Positions 45,815-59,426 of a DNA stretch of 64,000 bases are shown piece by piece. Position 1 is the first letter of the stretch. The number at the start of each line of letters is the position of its first letter. Origin of the DNA: SAR116 cluster alpha proteobacterium HIMB100 (GTDB lineage Bacteria; Pseudomonadota; Alphaproteobacteria; Puniceispirillales; Puniceispirillaceae); assembly GCA_000238815.2 (NCBI GenBank), contig AFXB01000008.1, positions 62,001 to 126,000 of the forward strand, in the 5' to 3' direction. The notes under the pieces were generated by a model, which was not told the origin of the DNA, did not search any database, and saw only the letters and a list, made by a program, of their open reading frames with translations. Made by a program: the position numbers and the translations under genes.

Positions 45815-48652
45815 ATGTCACAACCTCAGCTTAACCCGTCTCCGCCAGTCTCTGACGAGGTCCGGAAAACTACCTGCTATATGTGTGCCTGCCGGTGCGG
45901 GATCAATGTGCATTTACGTGATGGCAAAGTCCGTTATATCGAGGGTAATCGTGACCATCCGGTCAATCAGGGTGTGTTGTGTGCCAAAGGCAGCGCAGGC
46001 ATTATGCAGCATTATGCGCCGTCACGGCTGACCAGCCCCATGCGCCGGGTGGGTGAGCGCGGCGAAGGTAAGTTTGAGCCGATCAGCTGGGAAGAAGCGA
46101 TGGCTATGGCAACAGACTGGCTGGACCCTATCCGCAAGTCAGATCCGTCGCGGCTGGCGTTTTTCACAGGCCGTGATCAGTCGCAAGGGCTGACCGGCTG
46201 GTGGGCACAGCAGTTCGGGACTCATAATTTTGCAGCGCATGGCGGTTTTTGTTCAGTGAATATGGCGGCAGCCGGTATTTACACTATGGGCGGGGCGTTC
46301 TGGGAGTTTGGTTCGCCAGACTGGGAGCGTACCAAGCTGTTTATGATTTTTGGCGTGGCTGAAGATCATGACAGTAACCCGATTAAAATGGGGCTGTCCC
46401 GCCTGAAAGCTAGAGGCGCAAAAGTGGTGGCAGTAAACCCTGTGCGCACAGGCTATAACGCGATTGCAGATGAATGGGTGGGCATTACGCCGGGAACAGA
46501 CGGTCTGTTTGTGCTGGCCCTTATCCATGAGCTGTTCTGTGCAGGTAAGATAGATCTGGATTACCTGATCCGCTACACCAACGCGCCATGGCTGGTTATT
46601 GACAGCCCCGAACATGAGCAGCATGGCCTGTTTTTACGCGACAAGGACGGCGTTCCGCAGGTGCTTGACCGCAAAACAGGAAAAGCTGTTTCGAAGGATA
46701 AAAAGGCGGTGAAGCCTGATCTGAAAGGTGAGGTGGTCACAAAAGACGGGCTGCGGGCTGTACCTGTCTTCATGAAGATGGCTGAAGCCTATATGGATGA
46801 CGGCTATGCCCCTGAGGCAGTTGCTGAGGCCACAGGCGTGTCAGCAGCCCAGATCAAAGCGATTGCTGCAGAATTGGCGCGGGTTGCGTTTGAAGAAGAA
46901 ATTGTCATTGACCAGCCCTGGACAGATTTCAAGGGTGAGCAGCATGACAAGATGATCGGCCGTCCGGTCTCTATGCATGCGATGCGCGGGATTTCGGCTC
47001 ATTCAAATGGGTTTCAGACCTGCCGGGCTATACATCTGTTGCAGATTCTGCTGGGTTCTATTGAATGTCCGGGCGGTTTCCGCTTCAAGCCGCCTTATCC
47101 GAAGCCATCAACAGCCCATCCGGCCCCTGGCCGCATTACAGAGGCAGGCAAGCCAGCATCCGGCCCGCCTTTGGGCTATATTCACGGACCAGAAGACCTG
47201 TTGATTGACGAGACAGGCGCGCCATTGCGTATCGATAAGGCCTATAGCTGGGATGCGCCTTTTTCCGCGCATGGTCTGATGCATATGGTGATTTCAAACG
47301 CCTATGCAGGTGATCCGTATCCGGTGGATGTGTTGTTTATGTATATGGCCAATATGTCGTGGAATTCATCAATGAATTCCGGCGGTGTGATGGAGATGTT
47401 GAAGGCAAAGCGGGAAGATGGCAAATATGTCATCCCGAAGATTATCTATTCTGATGCCTATTCTTCAGAAATGGTGGCTTTTGCAGATTTGATCCTGCCT
47501 GACACCACCTATCTGGAACGCCATGACTGTATTTCGCTTCTTGACCGGCCCATTTGTGAAACAGATGCGGTAGCAGACAGTATCCGCTGGCCGGTTGTTG
47601 AGCCTGACCGTGATGTGCGCGGGTTCCAGTCTGTGCTGCTTGATTTGGGTGCACGTCTTGGCTTGCCGGGCATGACAAATGAAGATGGCAGTCCGAAATT
47701 TGCAGATTATGCGGATTATATGGTCAATCATCAGCGCAAACCAGGGATTGGACCTCTGGCCGGATTCCGCGGCGAAGAGGGGGATAAGATGGGGCGCGGT
47801 GAGCCGAACCCTGACCAAATTGAGCGCTATATTGAAAATGGCGGTTTTTGGGTTGAAGAAATTCCGGAAGGTGCGAAGTTCTACAAACATGCCAATACAG
47901 CATATCAGGACTGGGCTGTGGAAATGGGCTTTTTTGATGCGCCGCAGCCCGTGACCTTCCAGCTCTGGCTGGAACCGCTGGCCAAATTCCAGCTGGCCGC
48001 AGGCGGACATGGCCCGCACACAGCCCCTGAGCATGTGAAAGACCGGATAAAGGCCCATTTCACACCGCTGCCGCATTGGTATGCGCCTTATGAAGGGGCT
48101 GCGCTGGGCACAGATGAGGCCGATTACCCGTATCATGCGATCACACAACGCCCGGCAGCGATGTATCACAGCTGGGGATCACAGAATGCCTGGCTGCGCC
48201 AAATCCATACCCATAACCCGTTATATGTGCCCGGGCCAGTCTGTGATGAGGCCGGGTTAACAGATGGAGACTGGGCCTGGGTGTCGTCTCATCACGGGCG
48301 CATTAAGGTACAGGTTAAGCGTATGGAAGCGGTAAATTCACGCACGCTGTGGACCTGGAATGCGATTGGTAAGCGGCGGGGGGCCTGGGCCCTTTCCCCA
48401 GATGCGCCAGAGGCCAAAAAAGGGTTTTTGCTGAACCATCTGATCCATGAATTGCTGCCAGGCAGCGAGGATGGGTTGCGGATGTCAAATTCAGATCCCA
48501 TAACTGGCCAGGCGGCCTGGTATGATTTGCGGGTGAAGATTGAAAAGGCCGAGGAAGGGGCAGGGGTAACAGAACCTGTGACCGGCACACAAGCCGGACC
48601 AAACAGCCCGCCTGAAGGCTCATTGCGTTACGGACAGGAGTGGTCAAAATGA
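45815..48652 (+). CDS. soeA: Sulfite dehydrogenase, molybdopterin subunit SoeA
   Basis: 945 residues of the DMSO-reductase (complex iron-sulfur molybdoenzyme) family. SoeA oxidises sulfite to sulfate in the cytoplasm. A 4Fe-4S site is bound by C21, C24, C28 and C56 (TTCYMCACRCGINV, then GVLCAKGS). Cys146 in HGGFCSVNMAAAG is the probable Mo ligand. There is no twin-arginine signal, which separates it from periplasmic relatives. With a four-cluster SoeB and a DmsC-like SoeC next to it, and Xsc producing sulfite nearby, sulfite is the best substrate. Other cytoplasmic CISM enzymes remain possible. Overlap with soeB is ATGA. Confidence 0.85.
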   Translation: MSQPQLNPSPPVSDEVRKTTCYMCACRCGINVHLRDGKVRYIEGNRDHPVNQGVLCAKGSAGIMQHYAPSRLTSPMRRVGERGEGKFEPISWEEAMAMATDWLDPIRKSDPSRLAFFTGRDQSQGLTGWWAQQFGTHNFAAHGGFCSVNMAAAGIYTMGGAFWEFGSPDWERTKLFMIFGVAEDHDSNPIKMGLSRLKARGAKVVAVNPVRTGYNAIADEWVGITPGTDGLFVLALIHELFCAGKIDLDYLIRYTNAPWLVIDSPEHEQHGLFLRDKDGVPQVLDRKTGKAVSKDKKAVKPDLKGEVVTKDGLRAVPVFMKMAEAYMDDGYAPEAVAEATGVSAAQIKAIAAELARVAFEEEIVIDQPWTDFKGEQHDKMIGRPVSMHAMRGISAHSNGFQTCRAIHLLQILLGSIECPGGFRFKPPYPKPSTAHPAPGRITEAGKPASGPPLGYIHGPEDLLIDETGAPLRIDKAYSWDAPFSAHGLMHMVISNAYAGDPYPVDVLFMYMANMSWNSSMNSGGVMEMLKAKREDGKYVIPKIIYSDAYSSEMVAFADLILPDTTYLERHDCISLLDRPICETDAVADSIRWPVVEPDRDVRGFQSVLLDLGARLGLPGMTNEDGSPKFADYADYMVNHQRKPGIGPLAGFRGEEGDKMGRGEPNPDQIERYIENGGFWVEEIPEGAKFYKHANTAYQDWAVEMGFFDAPQPVTFQLWLEPLAKFQLAAGGHGPHTAPEHVKDRIKAHFTPLPHWYAPYEGAALGTDEADYPYHAITQRPAAMYHSWGSQNAWLRQIHTHNPLYVPGPVCDEAGLTDGDWAWVSSHHGRIKVQVKRMEAVNSRTLWTWNAIGKRRGAWALSPDAPEAKKGFLLNHLIHELLPGSEDGLRMSNSDPITGQAAWYDLRVKIEKAEEGAGVTEPVTGTQAGPNSPPEGSLRYGQEWSK

Positions 48653-49434
48653 CGATGCTGCCAATGGAATCACCCAAAAAGCTGGGCCTAGTGATTGACC
48701 TGGATATCTGTGTGGGCTGTCATGCTTGTGCGGTCAATTGTAAGGAATGGAATACAGGCGGTTATGGCAATGCGTTGTCTGATCAGGCCCCCTATGGCGA
48801 GGACCCGGCCGGAACATGGCTGAACCGGATCCATTCGTTTGAGGCAATCCCGTTTGATGATGCCGGTAATGCCGCCCCACAGGATGCACGGATTGTCCAT
48901 TTTCCGAAATCATGCCTGCATTGTGATGATGCCCCTTGTGTGACGGTTTGCCCGACAGGTGCAAGCTACAAGCGGGCTGAAGACGGGATTGTGCTGGTCA
49001 ATGAAGATGCCTGTATTGGTTGCGGATTATGTGCCTGGTCATGTGCCTATGGCGCGCGTGAGATGGATGCAGAGGCAGGGGTGATGAAAAAATGCACGCT
49101 CTGTGTTGACCGGATTTATAATGATAATCTGCCTGAAGAAGATCGGGTTCCGGCTTGTGTGAAATCTTGTCCGGCGAGCGCGCGTCATTTCGGTGATTTG
49201 GCAGACCCGACTTCAGATGTGTCGGTAATGGTTGCAGAGCGCGGCGGCATCGATCTGATGCCAGAACAGGGCAACCGGCCGGTAAACAAATATCTGCCGC
49301 CACGGCCAAAATCAGGAACACAAGCCTGCGGGGCCGGCCGTGAGGAAGAATTATCGCTGGTGAAGATGGCTGATACCCCGAAAGCAGACGGTTTTGTGGG
49401 CTGGCTGGATTCTGCCTTGTCAAAGCTGGGTTAA
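48649..49434 (+). CDS. soeB: Sulfite dehydrogenase, iron-sulfur subunit SoeB
   Basis: 261 residues from ATG 48649, with AGGAG nine bases upstream. It passes electrons from the Mo site to the membrane subunit. Four cysteine groups are seen: ICVGCHACAVNC, CLHCDDAPCVTVC, ACIGCGLCAWSC, and a split set in KKCTLCVDR with ACVKSC. The pattern matches DmsB/NrfC-type four-cluster ferredoxins. It has no export signal, so it stays in the cytoplasm with SoeA. Confidence 0.88.
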   Translation: MTMLPMESPKKLGLVIDLDICVGCHACAVNCKEWNTGGYGNALSDQAPYGEDPAGTWLNRIHSFEAIPFDDAGNAAPQDARIVHFPKSCLHCDDAPCVTVCPTGASYKRAEDGIVLVNEDACIGCGLCAWSCAYGAREMDAEAGVMKKCTLCVDRIYNDNLPEEDRVPACVKSCPASARHFGDLADPTSDVSVMVAERGGIDLMPEQGNRPVNKYLPPRPKSGTQACGAGREEELSLVKMADTPKADGFVGWLDSALSKLG

Positions 49435-49486
49435 CAAAGAATAAAAAAACAGCCGTCAACGGCCGTAAGAATTAAGGGTTGATAGG

Positions 49487-50401
49487 ATGCATCCTGCAAA
49501 ATCAGTTATCTTTTTCACCACCATTTCAGGGGCCGGATTTGGTCTTATTGCTTTATTGGCCCTGACTGCGGGCATGGGGCATATCAGCTGGGACAAAAGC
49601 TGGCCATTGGCAGCTGTTGGCCTTGTCCTGGCGGTGGCCGGGCTTGTTTCGTCAACCTTCCACCTGGGTAACCCGCAGCGGGCCTGGCGTGCCTTCAGCC
49701 AATGGCAGTCCAGCTGGTTGTCCCGTGAAGGCGTGCTGGCTGTGGTGACCTGCGGGCTGTTCGGGCTGTGGGTTGCGGGCGGCATGACCGGCTATATCCT
49801 GCCAAATGAAACCGGCTTTGCGGTCGCCGCCTTATGCGTGCTGACCGTCTTTGCCACAGCCATGATTTATGCCCAATTGCGTCCTGTTCCGCGCTGGCAT
49901 AGCTGGCTGACCCCGGCCAGCTATCTGGGTTTTGCGCTGTCTTCAGGCATGTTGCTGATGGTTATGCTGCACCCGCATTATGACGGTATGGCAGGTGGCG
50001 CGCTGGGTTGTCTTGTGCTGGCCTGGGCGGTTAAGGCGATGTGGTGGTCACGGGCAGCTAAAACAGATGTCCGTTCCAGCGGGTCTGATACCGCAACAGC
50101 GACTGGCCTTGCCGGCTATGCGGATATAAAGCTGTTTGAAAAACCGCATATGACAAAAAATTACCTGATGAAGGAAATGGTCTTTGAAGTGGGCCGCAAA
50201 CATGGCCGAAAATTACGCGTGATTGCGTTATTGCTGGGGGCGGTGATACCTGCGCTATTGTTAGGCCTCAGCCTTGTCATTGGCGGGCATGTGGCGGTGA
50301 TGGTGCTGGCGGTGGCCGCGCATTTATGCGGGCTGTTTGTTGAACGCTGGCTGTTCTTTGCTGAAGCTGAACATGTGGTGTCTTTATATTACGGCCGGTG
50401 A
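49487..50401 (+). CDS. soeC: Sulfite dehydrogenase, membrane anchor SoeC (DmsC family)
   Basis: 304 residues with about eight hydrophobic helices. It anchors SoeAB to the inner membrane and hands electrons to quinone. The N-terminal SVIFFTTISGAGFGLIALL and SSTFHLGNPQRAWRAFSQW match the DmsC family, and SSWLSREGVLAVVT follows. FVERWLFFAEAEHVVSLYYG closes the protein. It lies 52 bases after soeB. Confidence 0.85.
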   Translation: MHPAKSVIFFTTISGAGFGLIALLALTAGMGHISWDKSWPLAAVGLVLAVAGLVSSTFHLGNPQRAWRAFSQWQSSWLSREGVLAVVTCGLFGLWVAGGMTGYILPNETGFAVAALCVLTVFATAMIYAQLRPVPRWHSWLTPASYLGFALSSGMLLMVMLHPHYDGMAGGALGCLVLAWAVKAMWWSRAAKTDVRSSGSDTATATGLAGYADIKLFEKPHMTKNYLMKEMVFEVGRKHGRKLRVIALLLGAVIPALLLGLSLVIGGHVAVMVLAVAAHLCGLFVERWLFFAEAEHVVSLYYGR

Positions 50402-51077: not shown

Positions 51078-53006
51078 TTACCCCTTGCCGCGCCACGGGA
51101 TGGTTTTATTAATCACCCAGCGCATGATGAGGTCAAACACCAGTCCCAATATTCCCATGATCAAGATGGTCACCCAGATCAGCTCATAGTCTGACACCGT
51201 CCGGGCCACATTTTCAATAAAGCCCACACCAGTTGTACCGGCCAGCATCTCAGCTGCCACCAATGTGCCCCAGCACACCCCGATAGCAATCCGGATTCCG
51301 GTCAGGATTTCCGGCATTGCATTTGGCAGGATGACATGACGCAGGATTTGATTATCTGTCGCGCCCAAAGAATGCGAGGCACGGATTTTTGAGAGTTGCG
51401 TGCCAGATGCACCGGTCCGGGCAGAAATCACCATAATCGCGAAGGCCACCATGAACAGCAAGAAGATCTTGCCATCATCCTGAATCCCGAAAATGGTCAG
51501 AATAAGCGGAGCCCAGGCCAGTGGCGGCACAGGACGGTAAAGTTCAATCAACGGGTCAAAGAAGGATTTGAAGAAGCGTGAGACGCCCATATAAATACCC
51601 AATGGCACACCCAGCAGAATTCCGAAGCCCATCGCCACAATTACCCGGAACAAAGAATCCCAGATATGGCCGTCCAGCATAGGCACAGAGCCTAAGTAGA
51701 CTTCGCCTTGCGCAAAGGCCAGCAGTTTGTCTTTATAATTCGGTACAAAGCTGCCATCCGGCTGATGCCGGGCATAGTCACCAGGCAGCATGTCAATCAG
51801 ACCATCAGGGATTAAGAAGGCCACAACATCGGCCACAGGCAGCCATTTCCACCATAATAAGGTGGTCCCTTTATAGCCGCCGCCCGCCTCCAGGTCAGGA
51901 TTTGCTAATTTGCCGAAAGTAGCGACAACATCAGTTGGCTTTGGCAGCCAGCGTCCGGGACCCTGTTCAGAACAAATGGTCTTGGATTTGACCACACCTT
52001 CGCCAGGGAAGAACACCGCTTCAATGAAGCCAAGGCTGCCCTTGGTGTCGTCAACAGTCCGGTACAGGGTCTGCACAGATGCATTTACCGTATCCAGCGC
52101 ATCAGCAGGGAATATGGTGCCGTCATCAACACGTTTGTAAATCCGTTCAACGGCCTTGATATAGGCTGCCCGCGCCTTGTCCACAGCCTCATCGCCTGTT
52201 GGCTGTTTATTACCCTCTTTCAGGGCAGCGATATCAGCTTTGGTTGCGGCGATCAGCTGGTCAGCTTCAGCAGATTTATTGCGCAGTTTCAAAAAGCGTT
52301 TTGCCACATCTTTGATGTCCTGGGATACAGCGTCAAACAGCACCCCCTTAGGCGTCATGGGCAGCAGCCCGATTTCTTCGTCAGCTACCCCCCATTTTGG
52401 CTGGGCAAGAGCGTCTGATGTCGGGGTCAGACCGTCATATCCGGCGCTGATTCTGTTGGTGATCTGATCCAGGTCTGCGGCCACCCGGTCTAGAGCGGCA
52501 AAGGATTCAGGAGCCTGGTTATCCGGATTTGAAAAAGCAGAGATAATGGCTCTGGTCTGGTCAATGGCGGCTAGCAGGCGGCGTTGTTCTGCAGCAGAAA
52601 ATACAGCTTCAGGCAAACGTGCTTCAAGCTCATCCAGCTGCTGGACGTTACGGACCACCAATGTGGTCGACTTGTAATAGCGAGACTGCATCGGCAGGGC
52701 AGCAGTAATCGGTGACATGGCTTCATCGATTTTTGCCACCTGACACATTTCATTGCCAGCATCAGGGAAATAAGCCCGGCCCATACCCCAGGAAAAATAG
52801 AACCAGATCAGAAGCAGAGCCGATACCCCGCATAATGCCCAGTACCAGCCCCCTTTGGTGCGTTCAGGGTCGCCAAATACTTCATCCTTGGCCCGCAGAA
52901 CAGATTGTTTCAGGCCAATGTAAAGTGAAACACCTAAAGTGACAAACAGGCCGAAAATGATAAAAGCGGCAATCAGCGCGCGTTCTTGTGATAAAAAGTC
53001 AAGCAC
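51078..53006 (-). CDS. tauC: Taurine ABC transporter permease with large N-terminal periplasmic domain
   Basis: 642 residues, against about 250-280 for ordinary TauC/SsuC. The C-terminal 200 residues (from about 445) are a normal permease: WDSLFRVIVAMGFGILLGVP, the YRPVPPLAWAPLILTIFG segment, and the EAA loop SHSLGATDNQILRHVILPNA. Before it lie two helices (about 10-31 and 53-75) with a basic loop between, then about 320 mostly helical residues. The positive-inside rule puts that domain in the periplasm. The start overlaps tauB by 8 bases. The taurine call follows from tpa/xsc next door; another sulfonate is possible. Confidence 0.8.
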   Translation of the reverse strand: MLDFLSQERALIAAFIIFGLFVTLGVSLYIGLKQSVLRAKDEVFGDPERTKGGWYWALCGVSALLLIWFYFSWGMGRAYFPDAGNEMCQVAKIDEAMSPITAALPMQSRYYKSTTLVVRNVQQLDELEARLPEAVFSAAEQRRLLAAIDQTRAIISAFSNPDNQAPESFAALDRVAADLDQITNRISAGYDGLTPTSDALAQPKWGVADEEIGLLPMTPKGVLFDAVSQDIKDVAKRFLKLRNKSAEADQLIAATKADIAALKEGNKQPTGDEAVDKARAAYIKAVERIYKRVDDGTIFPADALDTVNASVQTLYRTVDDTKGSLGFIEAVFFPGEGVVKSKTICSEQGPGRWLPKPTDVVATFGKLANPDLEAGGGYKGTTLLWWKWLPVADVVAFLIPDGLIDMLPGDYARHQPDGSFVPNYKDKLLAFAQGEVYLGSVPMLDGHIWDSLFRVIVAMGFGILLGVPLGIYMGVSRFFKSFFDPLIELYRPVPPLAWAPLILTIFGIQDDGKIFLLFMVAFAIMVISARTGASGTQLSKIRASHSLGATDNQILRHVILPNAMPEILTGIRIAIGVCWGTLVAAEMLAGTTGVGFIENVARTVSDYELIWVTILIMGILGLVFDLIMRWVINKTIPWRGKG

Positions 53007-53796
53007 CGCCCATAATCTCCTCTTCCATATCCCAGATCATGGTCAGAATTTCTTCACGGACTGAGCTGAATTCAGGGAGTTTTTTAATCTCGCGCAAAGA
53101 ATCGGTCAGTCCTTTTTCTGCAAAGGGAAGGTGGTATTCTTTATGAATCCGGCCCGGGCGCGGGGCCATAACAAACAGCCGTTCACCCAACAACAACGCT
53201 TCTTCCACAGAATGGGTGATGATCATAATCGTCTTGCCTGTTTCTTTCCAGAGTTCGAGAATCAGAGACTGCATTTTTTCGCGTGTCAGCGCATCCAGCG
53301 CACCCAAAGGTTCATCCATCAAAATGACATCAGGGTCATTGACCAGACAACGGGCAAGGGCCACACGTTGCTGCATGCCACCTGACAGCTGATATGTCGG
53401 AGTATCGCCAAAGCCCTGAAGGCCAACAATGTCCAGCCATTTCAGGACAAGGGCCTCAGCCTCAGCGTCATTCATTTTTTTCATGCGCAGGCCAAAATCA
53501 ACATTCTTGGCAACCGGCAGCCATTCAAATAAGGCGCCTTGCTGGAATACCATGCCGCGTTCCACGCCTGGCCCGTCAATAACCTGCTGGCCCAATGACA
53601 CAGAGCCGCCTGTGGGGTTGATAAAGCCAGCGACCATATTCAGCAAGGTTGTCTTGCCACAGCCTGATGGCCCCAGAACGGACAGTAATTCACCCTGTTT
53701 CAGCGTAAAGCTGACATTTTTGAGTGCCTCTACCGCATCACCCGTTTGCGGGTTGGTAAAGGTCATGCACAGATTGTCACAGATTAAGTCTGACAT
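52999..53796 (-). CDS. tauB: Taurine ABC transporter ATP-binding protein
   Basis: 265 residues. Walker A GPSGCGKTT is at residues 42-50, the Q-loop in VFQQGALFEWLPV, the signature LSGGMQQRVALARCL and Walker B VILMDEPLGALD. It belongs to the nitrate/sulfonate/taurine (SsuB/TauB) group. It energises uptake with TauC, which it overlaps by 8 bases. It lies 95 bases after tauA, with a strong hairpin between. Confidence 0.9.
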   Translation of the reverse strand: MSDLICDNLCMTFTNPQTGDAVEALKNVSFTLKQGELLSVLGPSGCGKTTLLNMVAGFINPTGGSVSLGQQVIDGPGVERGMVFQQGALFEWLPVAKNVDFGLRMKKMNDAEAEALVLKWLDIVGLQGFGDTPTYQLSGGMQQRVALARCLVNDPDVILMDEPLGALDALTREKMQSLILELWKETGKTIMIITHSVEEALLLGERLFVMAPRPGRIHKEYHLPFAEKGLTDSLREIKKLPEFSSVREEILTMIWDMEEEIMGGA

Positions 53797-53891: not shown

Positions 53892-54866
53892 CTACTGCAG
53901 GAATGAGCCGTCGATCGCAGCGCCAACAGACCCCTTGTAGTTCTTGATGTTTGTCTTCACAAACACTGCACCAAGAGATTCTGCTGCTGCTGCAGCAATC
54001 CCGTCATTACCGAAATAATCAGCAGCCTGTTCTGCTACGGTCGGGAACAGGAAACCAGCCATTTGGTTCTGTGTTGTTGTGAAATCCATACCAGCATCGC
54101 TTGCCACTTTGCGGATCTGCTCAGGAGTCGCCATCCATGCGGCGTTAGCTTCTTCTGTCACTTCCAGGAAAGAGCTGACCAGCTCAGGATTTTCGTTGGC
54201 AAATTTTTCGGTCACAGAAATCACGTCAAATGAGCCGATACCTGCATCTGTCTTCTGTTGGGTTGACATAATAGGCGTACCCACTTCGCCAGCAGCTTTC
54301 GCAGATGCACCGCCAAAGATACAGGCCATGTCAACAGATCCGTCAGCCAGAGAAACCGCACCGTCAGGTGGAGCCTGGTCAACAATTGTCATGGTTGATG
54401 TGTCTACATTCAGAGCAGCCATCTGTTTGCGGAAAGAGAAGTCAGCCATGGTGTTCAATGGCACAGCAACTGTCTTACCTTCCAGTTCAGATGCGTTAGA
54501 TGAATCAATGCCCAGGCCGTTTGCAACAAAACAGTCATTTGCTTCATAAACAACAGCCACACCAACCATCTTCAGTGGTGCGCCCTGCTGAATCGCAGTT
54601 ACGAATGGCGCCAGACCCTGTGAGTAGGCAATATCGATGTCACCTGCCAGCATGGCTTCTGTCATTGCCACACCAGTTGAAAAATCTGTCCAGTTAACGT
54701 CAACACCCATAGCTTCGTCGTAAGCCTTGTCGACCTTAGCGATCTGGTTTGGTGTTGCCCATTCCAGGAAGAAAGCGACATTCACGCTGTCTGCGGCCTG
54801 TGCAGCCCCTGACAATGTGAGGGCCGCAACGGCTGCTGCCGCTGTCCGTGTGATGAAAGATTTCAT
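53892..54866 (-). CDS. tauA: Taurine ABC transporter substrate-binding protein
   Basis: 324 residues from ATG 54866 with GGAGAGG just upstream; ATG 54878 is possible. A signal peptide (MKSFITRTAAAAVAALTLSG, cleavage near AQA-AD) sends it to the periplasm. The mature start VNVAFFLEWATPNQIAKVDK and later DIDIAYSQGLAPFVTA, EGKTVAVPLNTMADFSFR and PPDGAVSLADGSVDMACIFG match TauA-type sulfonate-binding proteins of the NMT1/SsuA fold. A terminator upstream separates it from tpa, so it likely has its own promoter. Confidence 0.88.
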   Translation of the reverse strand: MKSFITRTAAAAVAALTLSGAAQAADSVNVAFFLEWATPNQIAKVDKAYDEAMGVDVNWTDFSTGVAMTEAMLAGDIDIAYSQGLAPFVTAIQQGAPLKMVGVAVVYEANDCFVANGLGIDSSNASELEGKTVAVPLNTMADFSFRKQMAALNVDTSTMTIVDQAPPDGAVSLADGSVDMACIFGGASAKAAGEVGTPIMSTQQKTDAGIGSFDVISVTEKFANENPELVSSFLEVTEEANAAWMATPEQIRKVASDAGMDFTTTQNQMAGFLFPTVAEQAADYFGNDGIAAAAAESLGAVFVKTNIKNYKGSVGAAIDGSFLQ

Positions 54867-54929
54867 AATCCTCTCCATAAACTTGGTTTTTGTCGAAAAA
54901 CCGTACCATAGGGTGTAGAAAAGACAAAC

Positions 54930-55051: not shown

Positions 55052-56368
55052 TCAGCTTACATGCTGGTCGAGTGTTTTGCGGAATTTGTCAATAATTTCA
55101 TCAATATGAGTTTTTTCCGCAATAAAGGCAGGGGCTAAAATCCCGTTATCACCTGTGAATTTGACATGCAGACCGTTCCAGAACATGTCTTTCTGCATCT
55201 GCGTGCCGCGGCGACCAGGCACCCCATCATGGTGAAGTTCAATCCCCGCCATCATGCCATAGCCGCGCAAATCGGCGACCAGCGGATGATCTTTAAGAGA
55301 CCAGACCGCATCCAGGAAATAGCCTGACATATCAGCCGCCCGATCAAACAGGCCTTCTTCTTCGTAAATTTTCTGAGTCGCAATCCCTGCAGCACAAGCT
55401 GCCGGATGTGCAGAATAGGTATATCCATGGAAGAATTCGATCGCATTTTCAGGCGACGCGTTTGTTACTGTGTCATAAATTTCGTCTTTCACGGCAACCG
55501 CGCCCATTGGGATCGCCCCGTTGGTCAGGGCTTTGGCCATAGTGATGATGTCTGGTGTGACGTCATAGCTTTGCGAGGCAAACGCATTGCCGGTTCGGCC
55601 AAAGCCGGTGATGACCTCGTCAAACACCAGCAAAATGCCATGTTCGTCACAAATTTCGCGCAGACGCTGAAGATAGCCTTGCGGGGGTACCAATGTCCCG
55701 GTTGAGCCTGCAATTGGCTCAACAAAAACAGCGGCAATGGTTGAGCCGCCATAGGTTTCACAAATACGGGTCAGATCTTCAGCCAGTTCAGCACCTGTTG
55801 CCGGCTGGCCTTTGGTGAAGCCCTGTTCCGGGGTATGGGTATGACGCATAGTCACAATATTTGGCAGCGTGACCGGGAAGGTTTCTCTGTTCTTCACCAT
55901 GCCTGCCAGTGAGACACCACCCATGTTTACGCCATGATAGGCCCGCTCGCGGCTGACAAAGCGCAGACGCTGAGACTGGCCATTGGCGCGGTGATAAGCC
56001 ATGACAATTTTCATCGCTGTTTCAACTGACTCAGAGCCAGAATTCACAAAAAACACATGATTCAGCGGATCCGGCAAGATGCGGGCCACACGAGAGGCCA
56101 GTTCAAATGAACCCGGATGGCCCAGCTGGAAGTGCGGTATGTAATCATTATCCAGCATCTGTTTATACACAGCCTCGGCAATTTCCCGGCGCCCATGACC
56201 AGCAGGGGTGCAGAACAGGCCTGAAGAGCCGTCGATTAATTGACCGCCTTTGTAATCCCAGCAATACATGCCTTCTGATTTGACCACCAGGCGTGGATTC
56301 GTTTTAAAATCACGGTTACCTGAAAATGGCATCCAGTGATTTTCAAGTGAGTTAATATCAAATGGCAT
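55052..56368 (-). CDS. tpa: Taurine:pyruvate aminotransferase
   Basis: 438 residues, class III PLP aminotransferase. It moves the amino group of taurine to pyruvate, giving sulfoacetaldehyde and alanine. The N-terminal HWMPFSGNRDFKTNPRLVVK, the GSESVETAMKIVMAYHRANG region near 115, VFDEVITGFGRTGNAFA, and the PLP lysine in ITMAKALTNGAIPMGAV all fit omega-amino-acid:pyruvate aminotransferases. Within that family, taurine is chosen because xsc is divergent next to it and tauABC follows. Beta-alanine or other amines cannot be excluded from sequence alone. GGGAGAA precedes the ATG. Confidence 0.85.
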   Translation of the reverse strand: MPFDINSLENHWMPFSGNRDFKTNPRLVVKSEGMYCWDYKGGQLIDGSSGLFCTPAGHGRREIAEAVYKQMLDNDYIPHFQLGHPGSFELASRVARILPDPLNHVFFVNSGSESVETAMKIVMAYHRANGQSQRLRFVSRERAYHGVNMGGVSLAGMVKNRETFPVTLPNIVTMRHTHTPEQGFTKGQPATGAELAEDLTRICETYGGSTIAAVFVEPIAGSTGTLVPPQGYLQRLREICDEHGILLVFDEVITGFGRTGNAFASQSYDVTPDIITMAKALTNGAIPMGAVAVKDEIYDTVTNASPENAIEFFHGYTYSAHPAACAAGIATQKIYEEEGLFDRAADMSGYFLDAVWSLKDHPLVADLRGYGMMAGIELHHDGVPGRRGTQMQKDMFWNGLHVKFTGDNGILAPAFIAEKTHIDEIIDKFRKTLDQHVS

Positions 56369-56688: not shown

Positions 56689-58470
56689 ATGAAAATGACC
56701 ACTGAAGAAGCCTTTGTAAAAGTACTGCAACGACATGGGATTGAGCATGCGTTTGGGATTATCGGGTCAGCAATGATGCCGATTTCAGATTTGTTTCCGC
56801 AAGCTGGGATCACCTTCTGGGATGCTGCGCATGAGTGTAATGCGGGCATGATGGCTGATGGCTATACACGTGCTTCTGGCAAGGTCTGTATGATGGTTGC
56901 CCAGAACGGCCCGGGGATCACCAATTTCGTTACACCAGTGAAGACTGCTTACTGGAACCACACGCCCTTGCTGTTGGTCACACCACAGGCGGCAAATAAA
57001 ACAATCGGGCAGGGTGGCTTCCAGGAAGTTGAACAGATGGCCCTGTTTAAAGATATGGTCTGCTATCAAGAAGAGGTGCGTGACCCGTCACGTGTGGCCG
57101 AAGTTCTGAACCGGGTGATCACACAAGCGATTCGTCTGAGCGCCCCTGCACAGATTAATATCCCACGCGATTTCTGGACCCAGGTGGTGGATATTAACAT
57201 CCCTGAAATCCTCAGCTTTGAACGTCCAGGCGGGGGTGATGATGCCATTTCACAAGCCGCTCAGCTGCTCAGCGAGGCTGAGTTTCCTGTGATTTTGAAC
57301 GGGGCTGGTGTTGTTATTGGCGGTGCGATCCCTGCGTCTATGGCGCTGGCTGAACGGCTGGATGCGCCGGTTTGCTGTGGTTATCAGCATAATGATGCTT
57401 TTCCGGGCTCTCATCCCCTGGCCGTCGGGCCGTTGGGCTATAACGGCTCGAAAGCCGGTATGGAGCTGATCGCGAAAGCAGATGTTGTGCTGGCTTTGGG
57501 CACACGCCTGAATCCCTTTTCTACCCTGCCAGGTTATGGCATTGATTACTGGCCAAAAGACGCCAAAATCATTCAGGTCGACATTAACCCTGACCGTATC
57601 GGCCTGACCAAACCTGTATCAGTTGGGATTGTTGGTGATGCAAAGAAAGTTGCTGAATCGCTGTTAGCCAAGCTGGGCCCTCAGGCTGGTGAAAAAGGCC
57701 GGTCAAGCCGGACAGCTGTTATTGCCAAGACCAAATCTGCGTGGGCACAGGAATTGACCAGCCTGGATCATGAGGATGATGATCCGGGCACAACCTGGAA
57801 TGAGCGGGCCCGCACAAGAGAGCCAGGAAAGATGAGCCCGCGTATGGCATGGCGTGCAATTACGTCAGTGTTGCCAAAGGATGCGATTATCAGCTCTGAC
57901 ATCGGCAATAACTGTGCAATCGGGAACGCCTATCCAACTTTTGAAGAAGGGCGCAAATATCTGGCCCCTGGCTTGTTTGGTCCATGCGGTTATGGCTTCC
58001 CGGCCATTTGCGGGGCAAAGATTGCGCAGCCTGATGTGCCTGTTGTCGGTTTTGCCGGTGATGGCGCTTTCGGGATTTCAATGAATGAAATGGTGTCTGT
58101 CGGACGTGATGAATGGCCGCCCATCACCATGATCATTTTCCGCAATTACCAGTGGGGGGCTGAAAAGCGCAACACAACATTGTGGTTCGAAGATAATTTC
58201 GTCGGCACCGAGCTGGATACAGATGTGACGTACGCCGGTATTGCCCAGCAGTGCGGTGTGAAAGGCGTCCAGGTTAATGGTATGGACGCGCTGTCTGATG
58301 CGCTGGATAAGGCAATTGAAGACCAGATGAAGAACAACACAACAACCTTTATCGAAGTTGTGCTGAATCAGGAACTGGGTGAGCCGTTCCGCCGTGATGC
58401 GATGAAAAAGCCCGTTGCGGTAGCAGGTATTGACCCTGCTGACTTCCGCCCACAGCAGCCGATCCTGTAA
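56689..58470 (+). CDS. xsc: Sulfoacetaldehyde acetyltransferase
   Basis: 593 residues, thiamine-diphosphate enzyme that splits sulfoacetaldehyde with phosphate into acetyl phosphate and sulfite. The first-domain glutamate region is HECNAGMMADGYTRASGKVC, followed by VAQNGPGITNFVTP. The ThDP/Mg motif begins with GDG at 457-459 (GFAGDGAFGISMNEMVSVG) and ends in NYQWGAEKRN. Length and these motifs match Xsc rather than acetolactate synthase. GGAAGGAAT lies just before the ATG. pta follows directly, as in many Xsc loci. Confidence 0.93.
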   Translation: MKMTTEEAFVKVLQRHGIEHAFGIIGSAMMPISDLFPQAGITFWDAAHECNAGMMADGYTRASGKVCMMVAQNGPGITNFVTPVKTAYWNHTPLLLVTPQAANKTIGQGGFQEVEQMALFKDMVCYQEEVRDPSRVAEVLNRVITQAIRLSAPAQINIPRDFWTQVVDINIPEILSFERPGGGDDAISQAAQLLSEAEFPVILNGAGVVIGGAIPASMALAERLDAPVCCGYQHNDAFPGSHPLAVGPLGYNGSKAGMELIAKADVVLALGTRLNPFSTLPGYGIDYWPKDAKIIQVDINPDRIGLTKPVSVGIVGDAKKVAESLLAKLGPQAGEKGRSSRTAVIAKTKSAWAQELTSLDHEDDDPGTTWNERARTREPGKMSPRMAWRAITSVLPKDAIISSDIGNNCAIGNAYPTFEEGRKYLAPGLFGPCGYGFPAICGAKIAQPDVPVVGFAGDGAFGISMNEMVSVGRDEWPPITMIIFRNYQWGAEKRNTTLWFEDNFVGTELDTDVTYAGIAQQCGVKGVQVNGMDALSDALDKAIEDQMKNNTTTFIEVVLNQELGEPFRRDAMKKPVAVAGIDPADFRPQQPIL

Positions 58471-58484
58471 GGCCAGCCTGGGCT

Positions 58485-59426
58485 GTGTCCGCAGGATTTA
58501 TCAATAAGGTTAAGGCGGCCTGTCCGCCTGACCTGCTGAACCGGGCGAAGGCGCGGGATAAGTGCCGTTTGCTGGTGGTTCGTGCATCCGCGCCCCTGCC
58601 AATGCAAGCGTCGTTTGATGCGGTACAGGCCGGTATTGCTGAGCCAGTTCTGGTGGGCGAGCCTCAAAAGATCAAGGCTGAGGCAGATAAATTAGGCTGG
58701 GATGTTCATAATGATATGATTGTCCCTGCTACCGGAGAGGCAGAAGCTGCGGCCGTTTCTGCTGATCTGATCCGGTCAGGTCTTGCCGGCGACAGCCCTG
58801 CCATAGGGGCGGTTATGAAAGGCCAGCTTCATACTGATGTCTTTATGGGCGCGCTGCTGGATAAAACAGTCGGGCTGCGCACAGGCGGCCGATTGGTGCA
58901 TTTGTTTGCGATTTTCCCGCCTGACGGTTCTGCGCCTGTGCTGGTGTCTGATGCGGCCGTCAATGTCAGCCCTGATGACAAAACCAAACAGCAGAGCATG
59001 GCTGAAATGGTGCGACTTTCAACCTTGATTGGTCAGGATAGAGCCCGTCTGGCTGTACTGTCAGCTACAGAAACGCCCATTGACAGCATGCCTGCCTCAC
59101 AAGAGGCTGCACGGCAAGCAGACTGGGCGCGTGATAACTTAAGCGGGGCAGATATTTCCGGGCCCCTGTCACTTGATCTGGCTCTGTCAGAAGCCTCTGT
59201 TGCATTAAAGGGCCTAACAGATGATCCGGTTGCCGGCCGTGCCAATTGTTTTCTGATGCCTGAAATAGTCGCTGGCAATCTTCTGTATAAGGCTTTTGTG
59301 TATCTGGGCGGCGGTTGTGCGGCCGGGATTGTTGTTGGCGGGTCCATACCTGTACTGCTGACCAGCCGGGCCGACCCCCCTGAAGCACGGCTGGCGTCAA
59401 TCGCGCTGGCCGCCGTTGCCAGATAG
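58485..59426 (+). CDS. pta: Phosphate acetyltransferase
   Basis: 313 residues from GTG 58485, 14 bases after xsc. It turns the acetyl phosphate released by Xsc into acetyl-CoA. The phosphotransacetylase fold is seen in PEIVAGNLLYKAFVYLGGGC and AAGIVVGGSIPVLLTSRADP near the C-terminus, and AVMKGQLHTDVFMGALLDK in the middle. It is the short form without the DRTGG regulatory domain. The phosphate butyryltransferase subfamily is similar, but gene context favours acetyl phosphate. Its 3' end overlaps the convergent DUF2335 gene by 30 bases. Confidence 0.9.
   Translation: MSAGFINKVKAACPPDLLNRAKARDKCRLLVVRASAPLPMQASFDAVQAGIAEPVLVGEPQKIKAEADKLGWDVHNDMIVPATGEAEAAAVSADLIRSGLAGDSPAIGAVMKGQLHTDVFMGALLDKTVGLRTGGRLVHLFAIFPPDGSAPVLVSDAAVNVSPDDKTKQQSMAEMVRLSTLIGQDRARLAVLSATETPIDSMPASQEAARQADWARDNLSGADISGPLSLDLALSEASVALKGLTDDPVAGRANCFLMPEIVAGNLLYKAFVYLGGGCAAGIVVGGSIPVLLTSRADPPEARLASIALAAVAR

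Follow-up and report, generated by a model that had tools for sequence, protein, structure and literature searches.

Marine prokaryotes are reported to draw on taurine as a major source of both carbon and energy, and a large part of the cells importing it belong to SAR11 (PMC6647121). Among described importers, E. coli TauC (NF007545; TauC-SsuC-NrtB group) combines a first transmembrane helix (TM1), an LPxP motif and the permease core in this order, and its gene stands last in tauABC. The nearest solved cores, by sequence as well as by fold, are those of cyanobacterial CmpB and NrtB (cryo-EM of CmpBCD and NrtBCD), whose three entries hold two permease chains each (six in all) of 279–280 residues, too short for the insert described below. 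MalF, a type I permease, carries a large periplasmic domain, P2, which has an Ig-like fold and lies in another loop than the domain studied here, and for which we claim no homology. P2 is described as contacting the binding protein throughout the transport cycle (PMC3150292, PMC8134467). Helical or other periplasmic domains that read binding proteins are likewise reported from signalling proteins, with structures of TorS with TorT and of LytS with XylFII, and with activation of CtpL, an HBM receptor, by PstS (PMC6321045, PMC9769921).

The window analysed here, a 64,000-nucleotide stretch of SAR116 cluster alpha proteobacterium HIMB100 (contig AFXB01000008.1), contains a tauABC locus whose permease departs from all of these. 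The 642-residue frame proposed by the first-pass annotation was verified as open, with zero internal stops, and lies on the minus strand. As in E. coli, tauC comes last, with tauB and tauA upstream and an aminotransferase gene before them; xsc and a pta-like gene diverge from this group:

51078..53006, minus strand: tauC-like permease gene (642 aa, GTG start, 8-base overlap with tauB)
52999..53796, minus strand: tauB-like ATPase gene
53892..54878, minus strand: gene of a tauA-like substrate-binding protein (Sec-type signal judged by eye)
55052..56368, minus strand: omega-aminotransferase gene, AptA family (NF052567, 606 bits against a cut-off of 500); from its gene context the product is a probable taurine aminotransferase
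56689..58470, plus strand: xsc, sulfoacetaldehyde acetyltransferase gene (TIGR03457, 928 bits against a cut-off of 676)
58485..59426, plus strand: pta-like phosphate acyltransferase gene (top score 230 bits, under cut-offs)

A BPD_transp_1 match well above its threshold (87.6 bits, cut-off 26.4), together with the matching tauB- and tauA-like genes, identifies a type I importer. In agreement with the earlier assignment to the TauC type, NF007545 was the top NCBIfam match of the permease, though at 177.7 bits it stayed below the curated equivalog cut-off of 342. TauA scored 104 bits against TIGR01729 (cut-off 304), and for TauA, TauB and TauC alike the taurine models were the best or near-best matches, all under the NCBIfam equivalog cut-offs. 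Because of these scores the substrate was assigned from gene context, in which it is most likely taurine.

Alignment with ordinary TauC, to which the core is 43% identical over 195 residues (E. coli), divided the long permease into the following parts:

52923..52979, minus strand: extra N-terminal transmembrane helix, residues 10–28, missing in the insert-free TauC compared
52845..52907, minus strand: segment with the VFGD motif, residues 34–54, probably cytoplasmic, common to insert-free and Ig-insert sisters
52782..52838, minus strand: native TM1 of TauC, residues 57–75, by alignment with ordinary TauC
51951..52775, minus strand: inserted helical domain, residues 78–352, predicted periplasmic
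52743..52745, minus strand: Cys88, kept in 47 of 47 sequences
52107..52133, minus strand: R-x-D-D-G-x-I-F-P turn, residues 292–300, between the last two long helices
51972..51974, minus strand: Cys345, in the C-terminal hairpin, kept in 47 of 47 sequences
51927..51950, minus strand: W-L-P-K-P-T-D-V motif, residues 353–360, counterpart of the LPxP that follows TM1 in ordinary TauC
51669..51893, minus strand: second insert, ~65 residues within ~372–446, long form only
51108..51611, minus strand: BPD_transp_1 core, residues 466–633, the sole Pfam match in the protein

The domain of ~275 residues sits inside loop 1, between TM1 and the LPxP motif. The gap from TM1 to W-L-P-x-P measured 277–288 residues in two long forms, 130–138 in four permeases with an Ig-type insert and 3–8 in five insert-free ones. 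Furthermore, the distance from the motif to the core (taken as the last 205 residues) was 81–85 residues in long forms against 18–32 in the others, from which we recognize a second insert of ~65 residues; E. coli TauC lacks both inserts as well as the extra N-terminal helix. Several parts of the first-pass annotation had to be redrawn accordingly. It had counted two extra helices, one of which (57–75) aligns with TM1 of ordinary TauC, leaving only helix 10–28; its ~320-residue domain shrinks to ~275 residues plus the separate second insert; and its helix-rich domain ahead of the core is indeed helix-rich, but is placed after TM1 within loop 1. The charged stretch it had quoted, EADQLIAATKADIAALKEGN, falls within the predicted helix 246–266.

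Provided that TM1 and TM2 share ancestry with their counterparts in six-helix permeases, and barring two membrane crossings, we strongly infer that the stretch 76–446 is periplasmic, the side proposed earlier from the positive-inside rule. The sole further hydrophobic stretch (389–407, mean hydropathy 1.63) does not form a long helix in the model, where confidence is low. Mean net charges across 47 sequences (−6.0 for the domain, −5.0 for the second insert, +3.6 for the C-tail) point the same way; the loop between helix 10–28 and TM1, expected to be cytoplasmic, is only neutral (−0.1), yet its K+R richness is exceeded only by that of the C-tail and of the loop following TM2. Both the periplasmic placement and a disulfide are supported by C88 and C345, since no other cysteine outside the core is invariant (each 47/47) and both are also retained in two loci from a small-genome family (L122, L123); a C88–C345 disulfide probably closes the base of the domain. 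These placements are sequence-based. The alignment of 47 rows used here comprises the window's own sequence plus 46 of the 78 listed loci, with L067 (one stop) and L099 (a frameshift) excluded and others dropped by hand as partial or similar; a subset of 27 rows was obtained with a 68% identity filter.

AlphaFold modelling gave moderate confidence for the full-length protein (pLDDT 71.7, pTM 0.55; 47 sequences) and good confidence for the domain by itself (pLDDT 86.6, pTM 0.80; 27 sequences). The domain model has ten helices, eight of them 18–23 residues long and two short, and at its C-terminus a beta hairpin that holds C345. Residues 292–300 contain an R, a DDG and an FP that are invariant in the 47-row alignment, a pattern not retained in L122 and L123. 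Residues 80–430 alone had no Pfam match above cut-off, in line with the first-pass annotation, which could name no function for the region, and found nothing better than E 0.45 in a PDB sequence search; NCBIfam likewise offered no family for the domain. A Pfam search with the 27 domain members returned 30 families at E ≤0.1, each in at most two members. In a PDB search with the domain profile the top entry was 9r1o (sc-apCC-6-DPH-NR; E 4.7e-05), none of its stretches passing alone; 4psl came next at E 0.0018, followed by short or scattered matches, and BFVD yielded zero domain matches at E ≤0.001. Because the Pfam, PDB and BFVD searches gave no convincing family, no known accessory domain was identified.

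Structural comparison provided a faint lead. Foldseek against solved structures returned nothing at E ≤0.001, its top two rows, at E 0.058, being the ligand-binding domain of McpS. In a second fold comparison the best-ranked entry was the sensor domain of TorS (Z 10.8, rmsd 9.6, 154 aligned), followed by TTYH3, talin and a designed chimera and, lower down, by TorS of the TorS–TorT entry (8.7), McpZ (8.3), PilJ (8.0) and McpS (7.5), values to be read with the caution that, for helical bundles, a Z below ~13 may reflect merely a common arrangement. The modelled domain thus weakly resembles helical sensor domains (TorS, McpS), a likeness we treat as a lead only. Like the TauC domain, HBM and TorS-type sensors are all or nearly all helical and have both ends at the membrane; the TauC domain differs in sitting in a transporter, in its C-terminal hairpin and bracketing cysteine pair and in showing no sequence match to them, and they reside in kinases and chemoreceptors. 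An HBM profile matched only one of the 27 members (E 0.0074), and hhalign to E. coli TorS gave a probability of 0.14%, under the 0.5% of a TolA control; as sequence comparison gave no signal, membership of either group is not claimed.

Three further origins were tried and set aside. Internal duplication of a four-helix half received probabilities of 0.5–2.3% in four hhalign comparisons (best P 0.0095). A fused substrate-binding domain of the OpuA or GlnPQ type disagrees with residues 80–430, which contain no such family and which the model builds from helices and one hairpin. Two wrongly joined genes, and likewise a fused substrate-binding domain, disagree with the uninterrupted frame and with the listed loci, in 67 of 78 of which the match spans the whole protein (at least residues 5–639, counted from the table). 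Among the papers listed by a literature search covering titles and the beginnings of abstracts, with few subscription journals among them, none gave an account of such a TauC domain. We therefore describe the long TauC as a type I importer permease whose loop-1 domain, on this weak evidence of absence, appears so far undescribed.

To describe its distribution, genome contigs were scanned, and among 96 pattern matches at least 78 loci encode relatives. Their titles name SAR116, Rhodobacteraceae, Puniceispirillum, Silicimonas, Planktomarina, Granulosicoccaceae and Pseudomonadales; the closest TauC relative among the matches listed is 85% identical and comes from a SAR116 genome, and the long form also occurs in some gammaproteobacterial and Rhodobacteraceae metagenome-assembled genomes. 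Within the window's own SAR116-like family, residues 80–430 matched 35 of 61 genomes (21 of 28 when restricted to genomes ≥90% complete and ≤5% contaminated). With the domain profile, matches came from 23 of 60 genomes in the small-genome family (~0.8–1.6 Mb) and from a single one of 397 in a sample of the phylum, namely the window's own. Full-length long TauC was present in 10 of 387 genomes of the class, one with an internal stop as read (counted from the table), and zero of 1468 matching plasmid records covered 80% of the protein. The family and phylum scans returned one match per matching genome, mostly in frames of 632–653 residues, and among the frames inspected no other kind of protein was seen to contain the domain; some frames were shorter, perhaps cut by contig ends. 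Given its presence in SAR116-like, small-genome and Rhodobacteraceae genomes, one of the busier marine importers may carry a periplasmic domain that is so far undescribed. Two listed loci from metagenome assemblies carry broken copies, L099:2018-3930 with a frameshift (34 stops as read) and L067:360-2285 with one stop; both breaks may be sequencing errors.

The same loop hosts a different domain in sister permeases of ~420 residues (L145:7326-8591, L146:7323-8591 and L148–L151). The representatives from Ruegeria conchae (421 aa) and Paracoccus aminovorans (422 aa) share with the long form the extra N-terminal helix, TM1, the insertion site and tauA- and tauB-like genes upstream, and have a TFGD segment, but their insert spans only ~130 residues and is Big_9-like, there is no second insert, and they form a separate clade. 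Pfam was run on these two inserts, with one of the two above cut-off (32.7 bits for R. conchae and 18.8 for P. aminovorans, cut-off 23.6), and the remaining rows were assigned to the Ig type by similarity to them. Permeases of this type were matched along their length in 4 of 387 genomes of the class.

In a core tree of 48 hand-chosen rows (L003 omitted), the long form was one clade of 21 rows (100/100, branch 2.26) that adjoins a group (96/93) of insert-free permeases with V-F-G-D and Ig-insert permeases (six rows, 99/99); long and Ig forms did not group together. The TauA tree sorted by TauC architecture, with long-form loci at 100/100 and Ig-insert loci at 100/99, and joined these two at 95/90, apart from the insert-free sisters. 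Each group likewise stayed a clade in the TauB tree, which favours neither arrangement of the two. The trees are midpoint-rooted, with long-branch warnings for L002, L170, L113 and L147. In the core tree, none of the 27 selected rows that lack the helical insert fell inside the long clade, so no loss of this insert is seen; for loop 1 as a whole, two independent insertions, or one insertion replaced later, are possible.

We next consider whether the extension follows the degradation pathway, a survey the first-pass annotation had proposed. Among the 36 loci with ~6 kb on both flanks, tauB accompanied the long tauC in all 36 and tauA in 34; under thresholds we set ourselves, 24 had one or more of seven markers of taurine catabolism, and 12 had none within reach. 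L111 has the long tauC and tauB and no tauA recognisable in the locus by the thresholds used. For the sisters, an aminotransferase and a tauR-type gene are adjacent in the Ig-insert loci L189 and L190 (the latter also with xsc), and a DAO-type gene in L188 and L146, also Ig-insert; xsc adjoins the insert-free L194 and L195 (in L195 together with an aminotransferase and a gene of the tauR type). In L192 the neighbour is an aminotransferase, and L145, L191 and L193 show tauABC only. Helical-insert, Ig-insert and insert-free TauC thus each occur in the neighbourhood of tpa, xsc or tauR-type genes, while each kind also has some tauABC loci with no such gene within reach. Since the sisters share such loci, the insert does not track tpa/xsc; the extension tracks its own transporter clade. 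Because insert-free sisters occupy the same kind of loci, the domain is also not needed for uptake as such.

That sister pumps carry another domain in this position suggests a part for the loop in handling the binding protein that delivers taurine. Of the three roles suggested in the first-pass annotation (docking TauA, gating substrate entry, sensing the ligand), docking seems the likeliest from position and analogy. Our first choice, a tentative one with less than half of our confidence, is that the loop-1 domain is a platform that docks or orients TauA, working like MalF-P2. Under this scheme, the first periplasmic loop of a type I ABC importer permease, most likely for taurine, is enlarged by a helical domain; the permease would probably be a homodimer, by analogy with CmpB and NrtB, and so present twice per complex; the two domain copies would flank the TauA docking site, where they would hold or orient TauA and help to couple its closed, loaded state to permease opening, as MalF-P2 is reported to do for MalE. 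TauA docking is preferred because the insert lies in the periplasmic loop next to where the binding protein must dock, because a sister clade has a domain of another fold class exactly there, as if the site had been reused, because tauA and tauB are constant company, and because MalF-P2 sets an example; the sorting of TauA sequences by TauC architecture, the weak fold likeness to sensor domains and the two permease chains in CmpB and NrtB entries also speak for it. The natural series at one site (no insert, Ig-like insert, helical insert) makes the role of this loop in binding-protein docking directly testable. A wider version would make loop 1 in taurine permeases a socket for docking that alphaproteobacteria filled at least twice, by a helical sensor-like bundle and by an Ig-like domain, each tuned to its TauA; it strikes us as unlikely. 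If true, it would mean in the helical case that a module of the kind by which histidine kinases and chemoreceptors read binding proteins has been built into a transporter.

Evolutionary rates sit less comfortably with docking. In a distance-matrix test on the 40 loci with usable TauA and TauB, the partial correlation of the domain with TauA (given TauB) was 0.41, lower than the 0.69 between domain and TauB (given TauA), and partial correlations with TauA were 0.62 for the core, 0.54 for the second insert and 0.53 for the N-terminal helices; removal of a far group (37 loci) reduced the domain–TauA value to 0.29. Judged from these distances, co-evolution does not favour contact between domain and TauA. 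The domain also had the lowest mean pairwise identity (48%, against 61% for the second insert, 70% for TauA, 82% for TauB and 88% for the core), which argues against docking, since the least conserved part would be an odd docking surface. Also counting against docking are the insert-free sisters in similar loci, the separate placement of long and Ig forms in the core tree, and fold matches too weak to mean much for helical bundles. The distances and identities fit at least as well a clamp, in which the pair of inserted domains in a TauC homodimer would hold on to each other and stiffen the permease on its periplasmic face, with TauA docking below or between them and making no specific contact: rapid evolution and a correlation stronger with TauB than with TauA suit a part that touches the transporter, and four-helix-bundle modules of receptors are reported to tend strongly to dimerise (PMC9769921). 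CmpB and NrtB, however, make two-permease complexes with no such insert, and we consider the clamp unlikely.

Alternatively, loop 1 may simply tolerate insertions, the domain being an evolutionary ornament that is at most mildly stabilising. The finding of two unlike domains at a single site, the sisters that serve this pathway with no insert and the greatest divergence of all parts would be expected of such an ornament, yet none of the chosen permeases that lack the helical insert falls inside the long clade of the core tree, the domain keeps its invariant residues and cysteines, and its pN lies well under its pS against the nearest relative (0.156 and 0.73). The latter is one comparison with synonymous sites near saturation, L035 and L006 having given identical numbers and being evidently one genome in two collections, and it plainly points to purifying selection on the domain; we regard the ornament as improbable. 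A domain that binds taurine or senses the periplasm, as a ligand or osmotic sensor that adjusts transport by trans-inhibition or gating, would draw on the weak likeness to chemoreceptor ligand-binding domains and TorS and on six polar residues invariant in the 47 rows (N85, K92, R119, R292, D294, D295). Three of these (R119, D294 and D295) differ in L122 and L123, no signalling output domain was found in the protein by Pfam search, and the single HBM match and missing TorS sequence match also speak against a sensor, which appears quite improbable. A scaffold that reaches peptidoglycan or an outer-membrane channel and so places the importer is very improbable: a large, mainly helical extension might reach far if its bundles stack (judged from helix lengths only), but no peptidoglycan- or porin-binding family is prominent among the Pfam matches and nothing positive speaks for it.

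Several neighbouring features deserve mention in their own right. Convergent with tauC, a molybdopterin oxidoreductase operon (45815–50401; a 945-aa subunit, an Fe-S subunit and a third reading frame) perhaps encodes a sulfite dehydrogenase like SoeABC, with no NCBIfam cut-off reached; a large subunit of similar kind, judged by eye from its first residues, occurs in 11 of the 78 listed long-tauC loci. For Ruegeria pomeroyi, adjacent locus numbers are given for soeA, pta and tauR (PMC4334477). The AptA-family aminotransferase at 55052–56368 is only ~29% identical to the one that accompanies tauC and xsc in L048 and further loci, and the two divergent types seem to serve one and the same pathway. 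Finally, the genome of the window holds a second long frame outside it (L003, contig 8, 11202–11735; 622 aa), with a permease-like core (24% identical over 451–629) and long extra stretches, which we would guess is perhaps a betaine-type permease.
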